Shown here: one piece after another, positions 929-49,607 of the stretch | Numbering within the stretch: the stretch's first letter is position 1 | Layout of the letters: each line of letters begins with the position of its first letter | Assembly (NCBI GenBank): GCA_003248075.1 | Contig: QJYK01000337.1 | Span: 1 to 49,846, forward strand | Reading direction: 5' to 3' | Length of the DNA stretch: 49,846 nt | Origin: Gemmatimonadota bacterium | GTDB taxonomy: Bacteria > Gemmatimonadota > Gemmatimonadetes > Longimicrobiales > Gaopeijiaceae | Made by a program: the position numbers and the translations under genes | Notes under the pieces: generated by a model | Database searches by the model: none | What the model was told of the DNA's origin: nothing | Seen by the model: only the letters and a program-made list of their open reading frames with translations

Positions 929-2527
929 GTGGAGCTACTCCCCATGTGGTCGCGTCCCCTCGCCCTCGGTCTGGTCGGGGCAAGTGCGCTCCTGTTCCCG
1001 GACCTGGCGGGGGCCCAGGGGAGCGACCTCGATCTTCTGCTCACGCGGGCGGAGCGAACCGATTTCCACGAGACCACACGCTACGACGAGGTCATGGAGC
1101 TCGTCGAGCGTTTGGCCGAGCGGAGCCCGGACATCCATCTGACGACCTTCGGCTACACGTCGGAAGGCCGCCCACTCCCGTTGCTGGTTCTCGGTGCCCG
1201 TGACGCGACGCCGGAGTCGGTGAGGTCGACGGGCAAGACGCGCGTCTACGTCCAGGGCAACATCCACGGAGGGGAGGTATGTGGGAAGGAGGCGCTTCTG
1301 ATGCTCCTTCGCCGACATACCGCCGGTGAGTACGCGACCTGGACGGACTCACTGGTCCTCCTCATCGCCCCCATCTACAACGCGGATGGCAACGAGCGCG
1401 TGCGCCTCGACAATCGCCCGCGGCAGAACGGTCCTGTCGGGGGCATGGGGCAGCGACCCAACGCACAGGGGCTGGACCTCAATCGCGACCACACCAAGCT
1501 CGACTCCCCGGAGGCCCGCTCGCTCGTTCGGCTGATGAACGAGTACGACCCGCACGTCGTGGTGGACCTGCACACGACGAACGGGACGCGGCACGCATAC
1601 CACCTGACCTACGCGCCTCCCCTCCACCCGAACACCCCCGAGGCCATCGACCGATTTCTCCGAGGCCGCTGGCTACCCGAGCTGACCGCTCGCATCAAGG
1701 AGAAACACGGCTGGGACTACTACTACTACGGCAACGCGCAACCAAGGGAAGGCTCTTCCGCCTGGGTGACGTTCGATCATCGACCGCGCTTCAACAACAA
1801 CTATGCGGGGCTGCGAAATCGGATCGGCATTCTGAGCGAGGCATACGCATACGCCTCGTTCGAAGACCGCGTGCGTGCCACCCTCTGGTTCGTCGAGGAA
1901 ACCCTGGACTTCGCGCTGCAGCATTCCAGCCAGATCAGACGACTCGTCGAGGATGCGGACCGAGACAGCGTCGTTGGACGGAGTCTGGCGACGCGCGCGG
2001 TACTCCACCGATCACCCGAGGTGACGATTCTCCTCGGCGAGGTGGACGAGACCAGACATCCGTTCACCGGAGCAGTCGTCTTGCAGCGCCGCGATGTCTC
2101 CAACCCGGTCAGAATGCCCGAATACGGATCCTTCGAGACCAGCGAGTTGGCCACCGCTCCCGTCGCGTATTACCTGCTGCCGGAGGCCGCGGACGCGATC
2201 GATCGACTCGAGGCGCACGGGGTCGCCGTCGTGCGGTACGCGTCGGCACGCGAGGTGAGGGTGGAGCGCTTCGCGTTGGACTCCTCGGCGGTCACGGAGC
2301 GCGAGTTCCAGGGCCGCCGGGAGCGGACGGTGTGGGGAAGGTGGGTATCGGAGTCGACCAGCCTCCCCCCCGGGAGCGCGTACGTGTCGCTGGATCAGCC
2401 CCTGGGTCGCCTGGCCTTCACGCTCCTCGAGCCCCGCTCGGACGACGGCTTCGTCTCCTGGGGCCTCGTGGACGAGTCCATCGAGGCGGGCCGGCTGCCG
2501 ATCCTGCGGGCACCGACCGGTCGCTGA
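929..2527 (+). CDS. Exported M14-family zinc carboxypeptidase
   Basis: A secreted or periplasmic metallopeptidase of family M14 (carboxypeptidase A-like), 532 residues from the GTG at 929. An N-terminal signal peptide is evident (hydrophobic LALGLVGASALLF, then AGAQG). Zinc ligands fit H113-x2-E116 in NIHGGE and H215 in VVDLHTTNG, with DLNRDHTK between them. A glutamate in the later segment SEAYAYASFEDR (about 303-314) is a candidate for the catalytic Glu. The remaining 200 residues form a C-terminal region without an obvious second domain. The ATG at 944 would give a cleaner signal peptide starting MWSRP and is a real alternative start. The gene stands alone, convergent with the dehydrogenase-like gene 20 bases downstream. 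Substrate unknown. Confidence 0.9.
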   Translation: MELLPMWSRPLALGLVGASALLFPDLAGAQGSDLDLLLTRAERTDFHETTRYDEVMELVERLAERSPDIHLTTFGYTSEGRPLPLLVLGARDATPESVRSTGKTRVYVQGNIHGGEVCGKEALLMLLRRHTAGEYATWTDSLVLLIAPIYNADGNERVRLDNRPRQNGPVGGMGQRPNAQGLDLNRDHTKLDSPEARSLVRLMNEYDPHVVVDLHTTNGTRHAYHLTYAPPLHPNTPEAIDRFLRGRWLPELTARIKEKHGWDYYYYGNAQPREGSSAWVTFDHRPRFNNNYAGLRNRIGILSEAYAYASFEDRVRATLWFVEETLDFALQHSSQIRRLVEDADRDSVVGRSLATRAVLHRSPEVTILLGEVDETRHPFTGAVVLQRRDVSNPVRMPEYGSFETSELATAPVAYYLLPEAADAIDRLEAHGVAVVRYASAREVRVERFALDSSAVTEREFQGRRERTVWGRWVSESTSLPPGSAYVSLDQPLGRLAFTLLEPRSDDGFVSWGLVDESIEAGRLPILRAPTGR

Positions 2528-9939: not shown

Positions 9940-10536
9940 ATGAGTCGGAGGATTGCATCGAGCCGGCAGGACCGGTCCAGCCACCGGACCCCGAATGTCG
10001 TTCGCGGAATCGCGTTGGCGGTGGGGACCCTCCTGGTCGGCACCGGAAACGCGACGGCCCAGGGCGGCGGCGCGCCCGAGGCCTATTACAGGGCCGTGGC
10101 GGAGTTCTTCCAGCTGCCGCGCTCCGAAATCTCGATCCTGAGCGATTGGCACCTGCCCGCTCAGGAAATTCCCGTGGTCCTGTTCATCGCCCGACGAGCG
10201 GGCGTCTCGGCGGAGGCGCTGGTGGCGCTCCGGCGTTCCGGCCAGGGTTGGCAGTCCATGGCCGGTCGATACAGGGTGGACGCGAGCCACATGTACGTGC
10301 CGCTGCCCGAAGGCGCCCCCGCGGGGAGACTGGAGGGAGCGTACGGGCGGTATCGGTCCACCCCTCCCGGGAGTTGGTCGTCGGTGACGCTGGGAGACCA
10401 GGAGATCCTGGATCTGGTGAACCTGCGGCTCCTGGCCCAGGTTCTCCACATGGCCCCCGAGACCGTGCTGCGTCAGGCCGGCTCCGGGAGCTGGGACGAG
10501 ATCTACGCTCGCCTCCTCGGGAGGGAGACGCGCTGA
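9940..10536 (+). CDS. Exported protein of unknown function
   Basis: A 198-residue protein with a long basic N-terminus and a signal peptide ([21 protein letters not shown], cleavage near residue 41). The mature part is compact and mostly helical, with the segments [36 protein letters not shown] and [19 protein letters not shown]. The last two could be paired helical modules of DNA-binding or LysM-like shape, but no known domain can be named. The pattern resembles uncharacterised small secreted proteins that I associate with Gemmatimonadota; I cannot verify this. It is followed after 4 bases by the nitroreductase gene, so the two are probably co-transcribed. Confidence 0.75.
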
Positions 10537-10540
10537 ACCG

Positions 10541-11221
10541 GTGTCACCTTTGAGCTCCTACCGACCGGTTCCCCTCCCGGGGTACCAAGAGCTGCCTACG
10601 AGCGAGATGCGCCGAGCGGCGACGGCCTTCCTCGAGCGCATGCGTCTACGACGAACCGTGCGCGACTTCTCCGACCGTCCGGTGCCGCGCGACATCATCG
10701 AGCGGTGCCTGTTGGCGGCGGGCACGGCGCCCAACGGCGCGAACCGCCAGCCGTGGCGCTTCGTTGCGGTGGCCGACCCCGAGATCAAGCGCCGCATCCG
10801 AGAGGCGGCAGAGGAGGAGGAGCGGGAGTTCTATCGGAGTCGCGCCCCGAAGGAGTGGCTGGCGGCGCTCGAGCTCCTCGGGACGGACGAGCACAAGCCG
10901 TTTCTCGAGCGTGCCCCTTGGCTGATCGCGGTCTTCGCCGAGAGCTATGAGGTCGCCGCCGACGGCACCAAGCTGAAGAACTACTATGTCACCGAGTCGG
11001 TGGGCATTGCCACCGGATTCCTGATCACCGCGCTGCACCATGCCGGTCTGGTCTCGCTCACCCATACGCCTTCCCCGATGAGGTTCCTCAACGACTTGCT
11101 CGGTCGACCCGACAACGAACGACCCTTCCTGCTGCTCGTGGTCGGGTATCCTGAGCAAGGAGCCACCGTGCCGGAGATCACGAAGAAGCCCCTCGAGGAC
11201 ATCGCAGTGTTCGTGGAGTAG
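10541..11221 (+). CDS. Nitroreductase-family flavoprotein
   Basis: A 226-residue FMN-dependent oxidoreductase of the nitroreductase superfamily, closest in pattern to the iodotyrosine-deiodinase-like/BluB-neighbouring branch. Visible features are the FMN-binding start [17 protein letters not shown], then [15 protein letters not shown], and the later [19 protein letters not shown] and THTPSPM. Such proteins act as dimers on nitro-aromatics, quinones or halogenated tyrosines; the substrate here is unknown. The GTG at 10541 is 4 bases past the previous stop. The conserved core begins about residue 20, so a shorter start at the ATG for MRRAA (residue 22) cannot be excluded. Confidence 0.9.
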
Positions 11222-11284: not shown

Positions 11285-13201
11285 ATGGGCCAGGACGTAT
11301 CCGGCGAACCGACCGGTCCCGAAGCGGTACGCGCCTTCACGAGGGCACTGCTGCGTGACCTCCAGGCGCTCGAGCAGATGCTCCAGCAGGACATGTTCGA
11401 GAGCGGTGTGCGGCGAATCGGTGTGGAGCAGGAGATGTTCCTGGTCAACCGTGGCTGGCGTCCTGCACCGGTGTCCCTGGAGGTATTGGAACGCCTGGAG
11501 GGGCCGTACACCACCGAGTTGGGCCTCTTCAACCTGGAGGCGAACGTCGAGCCGCGGGTCCTCGAGGGCAGGTGCTTCTCCGCCATCGAGGATCGCATGG
11601 CCGAGCTCGTGGAGGGAGCGCGGCGCGCTGCCGAGCCCTCCGGGGCCGATATCGCGCTGGTCGGGATCCTCCCGACCCTGTCCAAGTCGGACCTCTCACT
11701 GGACAACATCACGCCGAAGACGCGCTACTACGCGCTGAACGACGCGCTGTCCAAGATGCGCGGCGGCGACCCCTACAAGCTCCGAATCGAGGGGACGGAC
11801 GAGCTCTATATCGAGCACGAATCCGTCATGCTCGAGGCGTGCAACACGAGTTGTCAGGTCCACCTCCAGGTCGAGGCGAGGGATTTCGCCGACGTGTACA
11901 ACGTGGCCCAGGTGGTCACGGCTCCGGTGCTGGCCGCGTCCGTGAACTCGCCCGTGCTGTTCGCAAAGCGGCTATGGGACGAGACGCGCATCGCGCTGTT
12001 CCAGCAGTCGGTCGACACCCGCAGCGCCACCGTACACATGAGGGAGCTCGCCCCCCGCGTCCGATTCGGGGAGCAGTGGGTCCGGGAGTCGGTGACGGAG
12101 CTCTTCCAGGAAGACGTCGCGCGCTTCCGGGTCCTGCTCACCAGCAAGGTCGACGAGGACCCGATCGCTCGACTCCGTGGGGGGCAGATCCCCGAGCTCG
12201 TGGCACTTCAGCTGCATAACAGCACCATCTACCGGTGGAACCGGCCCTGCTACGGGGTGGGATCCAACGGCCGACCGCACCTTCGCATCGAGTGCCGCGT
12301 CCTTCCGTCCGGACCGACCATCGTCGACGAGGTCGCGAACGCGGCCTTCTGGATCGGCCTCGTGACCGGTGGGTCGGACACGCTCGGCGACATCACCGAG
12401 CGCATCGGCTTCGACGAAGTGAAGGAGAACTTCCTCGCGGCTTCCCGGCATGGTCTCAAGGCGGGTTTTCATTGGCTGGACGGGACGACGTACCCGGCGC
12501 CCCGGCTCATCCTGGACGAGCTGATCCCGCTGGCCCGCTCGGGCCTCGCCGCTGCGGGCGTGGATCCCGAGGACATCGACCGCTACCTGGGTATCGTGCA
12601 CGAGCGGGTCGAGAGCGGGAATACCGGAAGCCAGTGGATGATGCGATCGTTCACCGCCATGAAAGACCAGGGCACCAGGGCCGAGAGGCTTGCCGCCGTC
12701 ACGGGCGCGCTCGTTCGCCGGCAGCGCGAGGGCTCGCCGGTGCACGCATGGGAGGTCGCGGAACTCCACGAGGCCGGCGGGTGGAGGCTGAACTACCTGC
12801 GGGTCGAGCAGTACATGACCACCCAGCTGTTCACGGTCCACGAGGACGAGCTCGTGGACATGGTGGCGTTCCTCATGGACAGAAAGACCATTCGCCACGT
12901 CCTGGTCGAGGACGACCAGCACCGGCTGGTGGGGATCGTCTCGTACCGGTCGCTCATCCGTTTGATGGCCGAGGACTTCGACCGTGAAGAAGAGGCACCA
13001 CCGGTGAGGGCGATCATGGAGCGGGACCCGATCTCGGTGGCTCCGGAGACTCCGACCTTGGAGGCGATCGACCTCATGCGCCGGCATCGTGTTTCGTGCC
13101 TGCCCGTGGTCAAGCACGGAAAGCTGGTGGGCATCGTCAGCGAGCGTGATTTCATGCCCATCGCCTACGAGCTCCTGGAAGAGAAGCTGCGCCAGGCGTG
13201 A
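11285..13201 (+). CDS. GCS2-type carboxylate-amine ligase fused to tandem CBS domains
   Basis: A 638-residue two-part protein. Residues 1 to about 490 belong to the glutamate-cysteine ligase family 2 (GCS2/YbdK-like carboxylate-amine ligases), seen in RIGVEQEMFLVNRG, FNLEANVEPRVLEG, LEACNTSCQVHLQVEARDF and ASVNSPVLFAKRLWDETR. These ligases use ATP to join a carboxylate to an amine; the substrate pair is unknown. Residues from about 508 to 630 are two CBS domains (VEQYMTTQLFTV... and VRAIMERDPISV...ERDF), which usually bind adenosine nucleotides and regulate the attached enzyme. Its stop overlaps the start of the deacylase gene (GTGA). The combination is discussed as a finding. A -10-like TAGACT lies at 11243-11248. 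Confidence 0.9.
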   Translation: MGQDVSGEPTGPEAVRAFTRALLRDLQALEQMLQQDMFESGVRRIGVEQEMFLVNRGWRPAPVSLEVLERLEGPYTTELGLFNLEANVEPRVLEGRCFSAIEDRMAELVEGARRAAEPSGADIALVGILPTLSKSDLSLDNITPKTRYYALNDALSKMRGGDPYKLRIEGTDELYIEHESVMLEACNTSCQVHLQVEARDFADVYNVAQVVTAPVLAASVNSPVLFAKRLWDETRIALFQQSVDTRSATVHMRELAPRVRFGEQWVRESVTELFQEDVARFRVLLTSKVDEDPIARLRGGQIPELVALQLHNSTIYRWNRPCYGVGSNGRPHLRIECRVLPSGPTIVDEVANAAFWIGLVTGGSDTLGDITERIGFDEVKENFLAASRHGLKAGFHWLDGTTYPAPRLILDELIPLARSGLAAAGVDPEDIDRYLGIVHERVESGNTGSQWMMRSFTAMKDQGTRAERLAAVTGALVRRQREGSPVHAWEVAELHEAGGWRLNYLRVEQYMTTQLFTVHEDELVDMVAFLMDRKTIRHVLVEDDQHRLVGIVSYRSLIRLMAEDFDREEEAPPVRAIMERDPISVAPETPTLEAIDLMRRHRVSCLPVVKHGKLVGIVSERDFMPIAYELLEEKLRQA

Positions 13202-14418
13202 GCTCGACGCCGGAGGTCGTGGACGTTCCGGGCGAGAGAACGAGCCTCGCGCCCCGGATTCTCGGGCGTGTGAGGGGGGAGCGCGCGGGCTCGACCCTAA
13301 TCTGCATCGGGGCGCTGCACGGCAACGAACCGGCCGGCGTGGAGGGCCTGGAGCGAGTCCTGCCGAAGCTGAGGGAGCGGGCCACGCACCTCCGCGGCGA
13401 ATTCGTGGCGCTCATCGGGAATCGCACGGCGCTCGCCCAGGGCCGGCGTTTCGTGGATCGCGACCTGAATCGCGCCTGGACGCAGGAGCGCCTTGGTCGC
13501 CTCCGCACCGAGGGGCGACTGAACGGGTTCGCGGAGGACCGCGAGCAGGTCGAGCTCCTCGAGGCGATCGAGGCCGTCGTCGCCGACGCTCGAGGCCCGG
13601 TGTACGTCCTGGATCTCCACACGACGTCGGGGCACGGCGGGCCGTTCTCCACGTTCGGCGACACCCTCCCCAATCGGGACTTCGCCGCCCACATCCCGGT
13701 GCCGATGATCCTCGGGCTGGAGGAGCTCGTCGACGGCACGCTCCTCGCCTTCCTGGGGAGCCATGGAATGATCGCCGTCGTGCTGGAGTGCGGGCAGCAC
13801 CAGGAGCCCCGTGCGGCGGACCGCGCGGAGGCCGGGAGCTGGCTGGCCATCGCCTCGGCCGGACTCCTGCCGGAGGGTCGCCTTCCCGAGGCGGCCCGCG
13901 GTCGAAAGCTTCTGGAGCGGGAGTCGCGGCGCCTCCCGCGGGTCATGGAGATGCGCTACCGGCACGACATCGGGACGCTGGACGGATTCCGGATGGACCC
14001 GGGGTACGAGAACTTCCAGCCGGTCGTCGCGGGTCAGGCCGTGGCCCGGGACGCGCGGGGGCCGGTACGTGTCGGGATGGACGCGAGGATCCTCATGCCC
14101 CTCTACCAGGCGCAGGGCGAGGACGGCTTCTTTCTCATCCGGGAGTTCCATCCGCTGTGGCTGCGCGCCTCGACCATCCTGCGGCGCCTGCGGGTGGACA
14201 GGGTCGCGCATTGGCTGCCCGGTGTCGCGCGCGACCCGTCTCTACCCGACGAGATGGTGGTGGACAAGCGTGTGGCCCGCTGGGGCGCGCTGCAGCTCTT
14301 CCACCTGCTCGGGTTCCGAAGGCTGGAGGACGCGGGCACGCGCCTGGTCATGCGCCGGCGACCGTACGACGAGTTCCGTTCCGTCGGGAGGCCACCCCCG
14401 CCGGAGTCGCTGCGGTAG
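13198..14418 (+). CDS. Succinylglutamate desuccinylase/aspartoacylase-family zinc hydrolase
   Basis: A 406-residue zinc hydrolase of the AstE/AspA family, within the M14 clan, which removes acyl groups from N-acylated amino acids. Zinc ligands are H41 and E44 in GALHGNEPAG and H141 in VLDLHTTSGHGG; DRDLNRAW supplies the conserved Asn-Arg substrate-binding pair. The last 150 residues have the beta-rich C-terminal domain layout (MEMRYRHDI, FRMDPGYENFQPV, GFFLIREFHPLW). The GTG start overlaps the stop of the GCS2-CBS gene, a sign of coupled translation and a shared pathway. No arginine-degradation (ast) genes are nearby, so true succinylglutamate turnover is unlikely; the acyl-amino acid made by the upstream ligase is a better guess. 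Confidence 0.9.
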   Translation: MSSTPEVVDVPGERTSLAPRILGRVRGERAGSTLICIGALHGNEPAGVEGLERVLPKLRERATHLRGEFVALIGNRTALAQGRRFVDRDLNRAWTQERLGRLRTEGRLNGFAEDREQVELLEAIEAVVADARGPVYVLDLHTTSGHGGPFSTFGDTLPNRDFAAHIPVPMILGLEELVDGTLLAFLGSHGMIAVVLECGQHQEPRAADRAEAGSWLAIASAGLLPEGRLPEAARGRKLLERESRRLPRVMEMRYRHDIGTLDGFRMDPGYENFQPVVAGQAVARDARGPVRVGMDARILMPLYQAQGEDGFFLIREFHPLWLRASTILRRLRVDRVAHWLPGVARDPSLPDEMVVDKRVARWGALQLFHLLGFRRLEDAGTRLVMRRRPYDEFRSVGRPPPPESLR

Positions 14419-14422
14419 ACCC

Positions 14423-15079
14423 ATGTGCGGACGGTACTCGTTGGCCGCGTCCACCGAGGAGCTGGTCGAGACCTTCGACGTCCCCGGCCTGACGTTCGAG
14501 CACCGACCCCGCTACAACATCGCGCCAGGCCAGGACGCGCCGGTGGTTGCCGAGGACCGACGGGGTCGACGCATGGGGCTCCTCCGCTGGGGATTCGTGC
14601 CCTCCTGGGCGGACCGGGTGCGGGGCGGCTTCGTGAACGCGCGGGCCGAAAGCGTCGGAGAGACACCGTCCTTCAGGGAGGCGTTCCGGGCGAGACGCTG
14701 CCTGGTGCCCGCAGACGGGTTCTACGAGTGGCGCAGAGGCGAGCACGGACGCGCTCCCCACTGGTTCCAGCCGGTGGGGGGCGGCCTGCTCGCGCTGGGG
14801 GGGATCTGGGAGCGGTGGACGGGACCCGGCTCCGAAGACTGCTTCTCGTTCGCGATCCTCACGGTCCAGGCGAACGCGGACGTCGCACCGATCCACCTGC
14901 GCATGCCGCTCATTCTCCGGTCGGAAACCTGGGATGCGTGGCTGGACCGGAGCACCCCGGTCCGGGAGCTTCGGGTGAGCATGGTGCCCGCCGCCGCCGG
15001 GACCCTGCGCGCGCATCGGGTCACGACCCGGGTCAACTCGGCGACTTCGGAGGGCCCGGATCTGGTCCAACCGGTGTAG
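14423..15079 (+). CDS. SRAP (YedK/HMCES) family DNA-protein crosslink protein
   Basis: A 218-residue SOS response-associated peptidase (SRAP) protein. This family covalently traps abasic sites in single-stranded DNA through its second residue. The essential Cys2 is exposed after Met removal (MCGRYSL), and N72 (NARAE), E102 (ADGFYEW) and H158 (IHLRMPLIL) match the known active-site set. Length and order are standard, so function is expected to be intact. It begins 4 bases after the deacylase stop and may share its transcript, though a functional link to amide chemistry is not evident. No LexA-type box is seen in front. It converges with the AAA ATPase gene. Confidence 0.94.
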   Translation: MCGRYSLAASTEELVETFDVPGLTFEHRPRYNIAPGQDAPVVAEDRRGRRMGLLRWGFVPSWADRVRGGFVNARAESVGETPSFREAFRARRCLVPADGFYEWRRGEHGRAPHWFQPVGGGLLALGGIWERWTGPGSEDCFSFAILTVQANADVAPIHLRMPLILRSETWDAWLDRSTPVRELRVSMVPAAAGTLRAHRVTTRVNSATSEGPDLVQPV

Positions 15080-48215: not shown

Positions 48216-49607
48216 ATGCGTGAACGCCACCACCGCCCGTACGCGGACGTCGCCGAGCTGGTAGGCTGGACGCCGCTGGTGCGGCTCAACCGGGTGACGG
48301 ACGGGTGCCGCACGCCCGTCTTCGGCAAGGCCGAGTTCATGAACCCGGGCGGGTCTGTGAAGGACCGCATCGGCCTGGCCATGATCGAAGCGGCGGAACG
48401 CGAGGGGACGCTGCGTCCCGGCGGCGTCATCGTGGAAGGGACCAGCGGCAACACGGGCCTCGCGCTCGCCATGGCCGGGGCGATCAGGGGGTACCGCTGC
48501 ATTTTCACGATGCCCGACAAGATGAGCACGGAGAAGGTGAAGCTGCTCCGCGCCTTCGGGGCCGAGGTGATCATCACTCCGACCGCGGTGCCGCCGGACC
48601 ATCCCGAGAACTACGTCATGAAGGCGAAGGCGATCGTCGCCAACACGCCCGGGGCGGTGCTCGCGAACCAGTTCTACAACCCGGCCAACCCCGAAGCGCA
48701 CTATCGGACCACCGGCCCGGAGCTCTGGGAACAGAGTGAAGGTCGCATCACGCACTTCTACGCCGGGGCAGGTACCGGCGGGACGATCACCGGCACGGCG
48801 CGCTACCTGAAGGAGAAGAACCCCGACGTGAAGATCGTCGGCGTGGATCCCGTCGGGTCCATGATCGCGCCCTTCTTCCGCACAGGCGAGAAGGTGGAGG
48901 GCCATCCGTACAAGGTCGAGGGCCTCGGGAACGACAAGATCCCCGGCACCCTCGACCTGTCCCTCATCGACGATTACGTGACCGTCACTGACCGTGACTC
49001 GTTCCTCATGGCCCGGCGCCTCACCCGGGAGGAGGGACTGTTCGTGGGGGGCTCCTCGGGGCTGATCGTGCATGCGGCCCTCGAGCGCGCGAGGCAGCTC
49101 GACGACCCCGAGGCCTTCGTGGTCGCCGTGCTTTGCGACTGGGGCGAGCACTATCTCAGCAAGGGATTCGACGACGACTGGATGCGGGAAAACGGTTTCC
49201 TCGACCGTCCCAGGAGGCGGAGCGCGGGCGACATGCTGCGTGCCAAGGAAACCCTGGATGGCGTGATCGCTGTTGCTCCCTCGACGAACGTTCGCATGGC
49301 TCTGAGCACCATCACGGCCCACGACATCGGACAGCTCCCGGTCCTGTCGAGCGATCAATGCGTCGGCTCGCTCGCCGAGTCGGACCTGATGGCCAAGGTG
49401 ATCGAAGACCCGCGCATCCTGGACGACGCGGTGGAGTGCCACATGGACGCCCCCTATCCCGTGGTGGAGGCACATGTGGACGCGGATCAGATCACCGCGC
49501 TCCTGCAGCGCGGGAACGCCGCCTGTCTGGTGCGGGAGAACGGAGCCATCTCTGGGATCGTGACTCGCTACGACGTGGTCCGGGCGCTCACGGGGGCCGC
49601 GCTGTGA
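48216..49607 (+). CDS. cbs: Cystathionine beta-synthase (PLP enzyme with C-terminal CBS domains)
   Basis: A 463-residue PLP enzyme that joins serine and homocysteine to cystathionine, or acts as a cysteine synthase. The PLP lysine is K49 in NPGGSVKDR, the substrate loop is EGTSGNTG and the phosphate loop is [10 protein letters not shown], all fold-type II signatures. Two CBS domains fill about residues 335-463 ([21 protein letters not shown]..., [20 protein letters not shown]...TRYDVVRAL). There is no N-terminal heme domain, as in bacterial and yeast forms. GGAGAG lies seven bases before the ATG. It is followed after 19 bases by the D-Ala-D-Ala ligase gene. Confidence 0.92.

Follow-up and report, generated by a model that had tools for sequence, protein, structure and literature searches.

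A CBS-bearing carboxylate-amine ligase gene overlapping an AstE/AspA-type zinc hydrolase gene in Gemmatimonadota: a possible make-and-break pair for a small amide

The window analyzed here is the whole 49,846-nucleotide stretch of contig QJYK01000337.1 (assembly GCA_003248075.1) from a Gemmatimonadota bacterium. It exhibits two overlapping genes on the forward strand, one encoding a carboxylate-amine ligase with a C-terminal pair of CBS domains, the other a zinc hydrolase of the AstE/AspA family. Several distantly related bacterial groups have this pair as well, so that its probable role is to make and recycle a small molecule. Our favoured interpretation, to which we give an even chance, is that the two proteins build up and break down one small amide of the gamma-glutamyl type, as a make-and-break module under the control of adenine nucleotides. 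The amide is taken to be of the gamma-glutamyl type because of the ligase family and of parallel systems described below. With ATP, the ligase would phosphorylate a carboxylate (glutamate's gamma-carboxylate being the likeliest) and then join it to an amine. An adenine nucleotide bound at the second site of the CBS pair would adjust ligase activity to the energy state. The zinc enzyme would hydrolyse the same amide, or a close derivative, and return the amino acids. We infer the substrate, the direction of control and the CBS ligand. The features of the pair are the following.

11285..13201, forward strand: ligase gene, 638 amino acids (aa), ATG start; GCS2-fold carboxylate-amine ligase with a C-terminal CBS pair, as modelled.
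11285..12754, forward strand: ligase catalytic domain, about residues 1-490, with GxExE at 46-50, R147-Y148, R235 and R334-E336-R338.
12797..13186, forward strand: CBS pair, about residues 505-634, with S619-E-R-D622 in the second domain (CBS2).
13198..13201, forward strand: start/stop overlap of the ligase and hydrolase genes.
13198..14418, forward strand: hydrolase gene, 406 aa, GTG start; predicted AstE/AspA-family zinc hydrolase.
13288..14148, forward strand: hydrolase core, about residues 31-317, with the zinc-type ligands H41, E44 and H141 and the catalytic-type residues E197, N91, R92 and R84.
14149..14415, forward strand: C-terminal extension of the hydrolase, residues 318-406.

The DNA at positions 13198-13201 is GTGA, so that the GTG start of the hydrolase and the TGA stop of the ligase overlap by four bases. 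Both open reading frames and this junction had been described in an earlier, sequence-only reading of the same DNA, and they are confirmed here.

That reading also labelled the first gene a GCS2 ligase with CBS domains. The label is right, though not obvious from the sequence. A Pfam search with the full 638-aa protein returned the CBS pair in two stretches (E-value = 5.4e-28) and no GCS2 match at E 0.1. The first 502 aa alone score 20.7 bits against the GCS2 family (PF04107; E-value = 2.9e-4), for a cut-off of 21. The same profile is matched by 20 of 23 relatives of the ligase at E-values up to 1, the best being 4.2e-10, and when run against the genome of the window it picked out two other genes but missed the window ligase. 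A profile of the ligase (A1) found no ligase match among PDB sequences, and a single-sequence hhalign comparison with YbdK (probability 1.2) was uninformative. The fold is nevertheless clear. The AlphaFold2 model (pLDDT 94.7) has as its best structural matches 1tt4 (Z 39.1, root-mean-square deviation 2.3 over 343 aligned residues), YbdK (1r8g, Z 38.7, spanning ligase residues 25-481) and plant glutamate-cysteine ligase (GCL; 2gwc, Z 33.2). Structural matches given in this work are those of the VIA lists, and families missing there are not thereby excluded. On this model the protein is a carboxylate-amine ligase of the YbdK/plant GCL type.

Residues E48, E50, E85, R147, Y148, R235, R334, E336 and R338 are identical in all 89 aligned ligases, as is G46, and N83 is kept in 87 of them. 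A GhExE signature is named for this ligase fold in Iyer et al. 2008 (PMC2588565). The window ligase exhibits both this signature and the RxExR-type ATP/metal motifs. R147-Y148, R235 and E336-x-R338 fall opposite the GRY, SMR and EMR motifs of plant GCL in a profile alignment that is itself weak (probability 59-75); the plant GCL arginines paired with R147-Y148 and R235 presumably have a substrate role. The CBS part matches the structure of AcuB (2o16, Z 19.4), and its nearest folds include AcuB with AMP/ADP. CBS2 carries a nucleotide-type (ribose-type) [ST]xxD motif in 69 of the 89 homologues, the window ligase included; the first domain, CBS1, carries it in one. Two observations concern more distant relatives. 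A Natrinema plasmid (L048, 7503-9056) encodes a haloarchaeal protein, annotated as hypothetical, that is related to the ligase domain at 25-28% identity. Several genomes of Saprospiraceae (e.g. G340, G379, G382) possess a second, more distant CBS-ligase paralogue with 38-44% identity to the query.

The second protein had been read as an AspA/AstE-family zinc hydrolase, and the class holds. Its sequence matches AstE_AspA_cat (PF24827) with an E-value of 3e-17 (63.2 bits, cut-off 25), and hhalign aligns it with E. coli AstE at a probability of 98.5. Its AlphaFold2 model (pLDDT 91.8) matches 3cdx (Z 23.0), DoeB (6twm, 22.9), E. coli AstE (1yw6, 22.0), human AspA (20.3) and CphZ (19.3). Sequence and model together thus place it among the AstE/AspA/DoeB-type zinc hydrolases. 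Residues D89, N91, R92, R84, H141, E197 and Y303 are present in all 42 aligned homologues. H41 and E44 are found in 38, that is, in every homologue not truncated there; the four gaps result from short gene starts. The roles of these residues as zinc ligands and catalytic groups are assumed to carry over from aspartoacylase. Most of the AstE/AspA/DoeB structural matches stop near model residues 316-333, and 29 of the 42 homologues have a C-terminal extension 60 aa or longer. Loss of catalytic residues in either protein, set beforehand as a refutation, was looked for in these alignments of 89 ligases and 42 hydrolases and was not found.

The hydrolase falls short of the cut-offs for two characterized enzymes: it scores 43.7 bits against the aspartoacylase equivalog PRK02259 (cut-off 180), 42.8 bits against the NCBIfam model of succinylglutamate desuccinylase (cut-off 170) and 36.4 bits against the AstE equivalog TIGR03242 (cut-off 305.65). 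Among the 18 of 43 called window genes that were scanned, no ast or other arginine-degradation gene and no RimK-type gene was recognised, in agreement with the sequence-only reading. Elsewhere in the window (929-2527, forward strand), an M14 zinc carboxypeptidase exhibits a weak AstE_AspA_cat match and may be distantly related to the hydrolase.

An initial survey covered 59 genomes, of which 24 have the ligase. In a sample of 200 Gemmatimonadota genomes, the ligase domain is present in 55 and the hydrolase in 49; both are present in 41, the ligase only in 14 and the hydrolase only in 8 (Fisher p = 1e-22, by a test that ignores kinship). The two genes are adjacent in 38 of the 41 genomes possessing both, and apart in G028, G161 and G166; with this degree of adjacency the pairing is more than chance. 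The 14 ligase-only genomes include five with CBS-less relatives, one with a match of 44 residues and one cut by a contig end. The hydrolase of one hydrolase-only genome (G228) lies at a contig end, so its ligase may be missing from the assembly.

For the wider distribution, the best 80 of at least 594 relatives of the ligase in named genomes were kept, with phyla as titled in the records. A hydrolase was called linked when located at most two genes downstream of the ligase on the same strand, as it is in 24 of these 80 loci. Linkage in the same order is found in Planctomycetota (11 of 14), Gemmatimonadota (4 of 4), Balneolota (3 of 3), Chlorobi (1 of 1) and unclassified genomes (1 of 2). One of eight Acidobacteriota loci is linked, and three more have less than 900 bases downstream. 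The pair is also linked in the single metagenome-assembled genome titled Gammaproteobacteria, a doubtful label for a sequence 65% identical to the window. Single loci from KSB1, Calditrichota, Rhodothermota and Verrucomicrobiota are not linked.

In a wider set of 125 loci holding 128 ligase genes, the hydrolase immediately follows the ligase in 46 cases. Forty-eight pairs, two of them from loci repeating genomes already counted (L090, L105), exhibit a 4-base overlap in 8 cases, overlapping or abutting genes in 13 and a gap of at most 50 bases in 33. In three Balneolaceae loci (L109, L120, L128), two tandem CBS-bearing ligases precede the hydrolase; a further gene follows it, and the one that was scanned encodes ScpB. 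The conserved pairing that the sequence-only reading had suggested looking for is thus borne out as co-occurrence and adjacency (38 of 41 genomes; 24 of 80 named loci), and the absence of pairing in other genomes, which that reading had named as a refutation, did not occur. Many ligases, however, have no adjacent hydrolase, which speaks against a strict pair.

The two genes are also found apart. Forty genomes with an unlinked ligase include 18 that exhibit a strong hydrolase match elsewhere (E-value of 1e-79 or better), 7 with weak family-level matches only and 15 with none; no neighbour is common to the unlinked hydrolases across the 15 loci opened. A sample of 80 genomes from the family of locus L136 (titled Saprospiraceae) contains the ligase in 78 and the hydrolase in 73, mostly unlinked, with distances of 8.4 kb to 1.5 Mb on eight contigs holding both. 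The two genomes in which no ligase was found have no hydrolase either (p = 0.007), and five possess the ligase alone; this co-presence is of limited weight because both genes are near-universal in this family.

Comparable ligase-hydrolase sets are present in the same genome and around relatives of the ligase. The genome to which the window belongs (G000) possesses two further GCS2 ligases. One is an EgtA-type ligase beside an EgtD-type histidine-specific methyltransferase and an EgtC-type class II amidotransferase-like gene, that is, an ergothioneine cluster (contig C162, L001:409-3458). The other is part of a triad of a RimK-type ATP-grasp protein, a GCS2 ligase and an N-formylglutamate amidohydrolase (contig C149, L002:1-3094). 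The CBS-less relatives of the window ligase, in five of eight genomes of one family, stand beside a peptidase C26 gene, in one case at 1.8 kb with a gene between; we take peptidase C26 to be the PuuD family. The C26 gene is upstream of the ligase relative in L053, L055, L056 and L057, and lies on another contig in the remaining three genomes. Across 118 genomes of that family the C26 gene occurs in 52 and a ligase match in 10, two of these being the CBS form, so that many genomes have the C26 gene without the ligase.

Taken together, these observations favour a make-and-break module. The ligase has the YbdK/plant GCL fold with its catalytic positions intact in all 89 homologues, and the hydrolase has the AstE/AspA/DoeB fold, its catalytic positions likewise intact apart from the four truncated homologues. 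Both genes occur in 41 of 200 phylum genomes, almost always adjacent, and in the same order in Planctomycetota and Balneolota. The short gaps and overlaps of the 48 pairs and the co-presence in Saprospiraceae point the same way, as do the parallels offered by the C26 gene beside the CBS-less relatives, the EgtA set, the RimK-GCS2 triad and CphZ.

Several observations weigh against it. CBS1 of the window ligase is without the [ST]xxD motif. No ligase match was obtained in an 89% complete genome from the same genus as the window. In seven Gemmatimonadota genomes of one genus the hydrolase is present and the ligase absent, which indicates that the hydrolase can serve alone; in the hydrolase-only loci opened (L169, L170, L171, L179), peroxiredoxin-type and pterin-4a-carbinolamine-dehydratase genes are directly upstream. 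Linkage is rare in Myxococcota (1 of 11), other Bacteroidota (1 of 26) and other Gammaproteobacteria (0 of 6), and 22 of the 40 unlinked-ligase genomes have no strong hydrolase match. Finally, pairing appears on both sides of the midpoint root of the ligase tree and needs 17 changes, at least 7 of them on supported branches; the pairing has therefore been gained or lost often.

A broader proposal is put forward tentatively: a gamma-glutamyl-amide cycle gated by nucleotides, in which a GCS2-fold ligase with CBS domains works with an M14-type hydrolase, would belong to near-core metabolism in Saprospiraceae and be common in Planctomycetota and in some Gemmatimonadota, its product being a metabolite new to these bacteria. 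The components and the general idea of such a pairing are known; the combination of a CBS-bearing ligase with an M14-type hydrolase over several phyla is new. Our literature search, outside which most subscription journals lay, found no description of the CBS-ligase or of its pairing with the hydrolase. Should the make-and-break interpretation be true, an ATP-spending pair that makes and breaks a small amide, with an energy sensor on the ligase, is common to several bacterial groups that are large and have seldom been cultured, and the two proteins of the pair would give a concrete assay for its metabolite.

The following genes lie around the pair in the window.

9940..10536, forward strand: small conserved protein, 198 aa, start uncertain (gene caller: 10015); no Pfam family.
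10541..11221, forward strand: nitroreductase-family protein, 226 aa from GTG 10541 (the gene caller prefers 10607); PF00881, E-value 8.3e-25.
14423..15079, forward strand: SRAP-family protein, 218 aa; PF02586, E-value 2e-64.

The sequence-only reading had proposed looking for a third partner, and the nitroreductase is one. Of the 41 ligase loci of the window's family (L003-L043, the window among them), 33 show the hydrolase and 31 the nitroreductase, and the two are detected together in 25. In the loci examined this partner is confined to that family. It raises the alternative, somewhat unlikely in our view, of a sequential pathway in which the ligase adds a gamma-glutamyl handle to an amine, another enzyme such as the nitroreductase alters the molecule, and the hydrolase removes the handle. 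Besides the frequency of the nitroreductase in the family, its position immediately upstream of the ligase in 19 places of the 125-locus set agrees with such a pathway. So do the EgtA-, EgtD- and EgtC-type genes of the same genome and the C26 peptidase beside CBS-less relatives in five of eight genomes. The restriction of the nitroreductase to one family speaks against it, and neighbour clusters of the Planctomycetota and Balneolota loci contain no third gene common to the pair. Where the nitroreductase is present, the handle pathway fits almost as well as the make-and-break module.

The remaining neighbours are less informative. The small conserved protein is usually found two genes upstream of the ligase in the window's family (position -2 in 16 places and -1 in 3 of the 125-locus set). 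The SRAP-family gene is near the ligase in 13 places of that set and is a frequent downstream neighbour in the window's family; it is probably outside the function of the pair. A promoter and terminator scan gave no signal exceeding shuffled sequences. At the other end of the window (48216-49607, forward strand), a pyridoxal-phosphate-dependent enzyme with a C-terminal CBS domain resembles cystathionine beta-synthase.

It is improbable, in our judgement, that the two enzymes are merely co-expressed and act on different substrates, the hydrolase deacylating some N-acyl amino acid. The seven genomes of one genus in which the hydrolase stands alone, next to a peroxiredoxin in four, and the many ligases without a hydrolase agree with this explanation; apart from the four opened loci with a lone hydrolase, the peroxiredoxin was seen only upstream of the ligase in another genus. 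It accounts poorly for adjacency in 38 of 41 genomes and for recurrence of the pair in other phyla. The joint near-universality of the unlinked genes in Saprospiraceae also speaks against it, though two genes each near-universal alone would give the same picture.

Less probable still is that the ligase makes gamma-glutamylcysteine as a thiol buffer, from which the hydrolase recycles cysteine. The GCL fold with its conserved residues fits this idea, and two CBS-less relatives carry the NCBI name "glutamate-cysteine ligase family protein". Planctomycetes, moreover, are described in one source as having no documented or predicted thiol (PMC6282198). However, the window's own genome already has EgtA in its ergothioneine cluster as well as BshC. 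Of 50 genomes with the ligase, 31 have BshC, as do 11 of the 14 Planctomycetota among them, so that the ligase fills no obvious thiol gap. On the same findings, a role of the ligase as supplier of a missing Planctomycetota thiol was rejected as a general explanation. We also considered whether the hydrolase tracks bacillithiol. Among 48 ligase-bearing genomes (L100 and L125, in which the hydrolase was not scored, being left out of the 50), 24 have both hydrolase and BshC, 6 the hydrolase only, 5 BshC only and 13 neither (Fisher p = 0.0006 on the raw table); independent pairs on the ligase tree give no support (3-4 supported pairs, median p = 1), and the idea was rejected. A pupylation-like protein modification was also considered; Dop and PafA are more distant fold matches (Z about 17-22 versus 39).

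The pair resembles, and departs from, several known systems. The ligase is like the YbdK/GCS2-family enzymes, including plant GCL and EgtA, in the fold of its catalytic domain (Z 39-33) and its conserved catalytic motifs, and differs in its CBS pair and its borderline Pfam GCS2 score (20.7 bits for a cut-off of 21). The hydrolase shares with the AstE/AspA/DoeB deacylases the fold (Z 19-23) and the zinc-type and catalytic positions; it differs in falling far below the NCBIfam cut-offs, in having no recognised arginine-catabolism context and, with 29 of 42 homologues, in the C-terminal extension. In ergothioneine synthesis (EgtA/EgtC) and in putrescine metabolism (PuuA/PuuD), a gamma-glutamyl group is attached by one enzyme and later taken off by another. 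Those systems, unlike the window pair, use other hydrolase folds, have dedicated pathway neighbours and lack CBS domains. CphA1 has a fold different from that of the GCS2-type ligases. The CphA1-cyanophycinase-CphZ system is nevertheless comparable in that, according to its description (PMC10206079), the last cleavage of an amide ligase's product is carried out by CphZ, an isopeptide hydrolase resembling AstE/AspA; AstE/AspA-annotated enzymes of cyanophycin clusters are there said to be isoaspartyl dipeptidases. The likeness of CphZ to the window hydrolase is a fold match (Z 19.3); the product in the cyanophycin system is a polymer, and CBS domains play no part. Similar in general plan are the sets described in Iyer et al. 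2008 (PMC2588565), in which GCS2-sized ligases of the glutamine-synthetase (GS) fold stand in conserved neighbourhoods beside a thiol peptidase or a gamma-glutamyl cyclotransferase, either of which cleaves gamma-glutamyl bonds. The partner there is a glutamine-amidotransferase-like cysteine peptidase or a cyclotransferase, whereas the window ligase carries CBS domains and its partner is an M14-type zinc hydrolase. If the make-and-break interpretation is true, the pattern of a GCS2-fold ligase with an amide hydrolase comes to include a regulated ligase and a class of hydrolase new to it.

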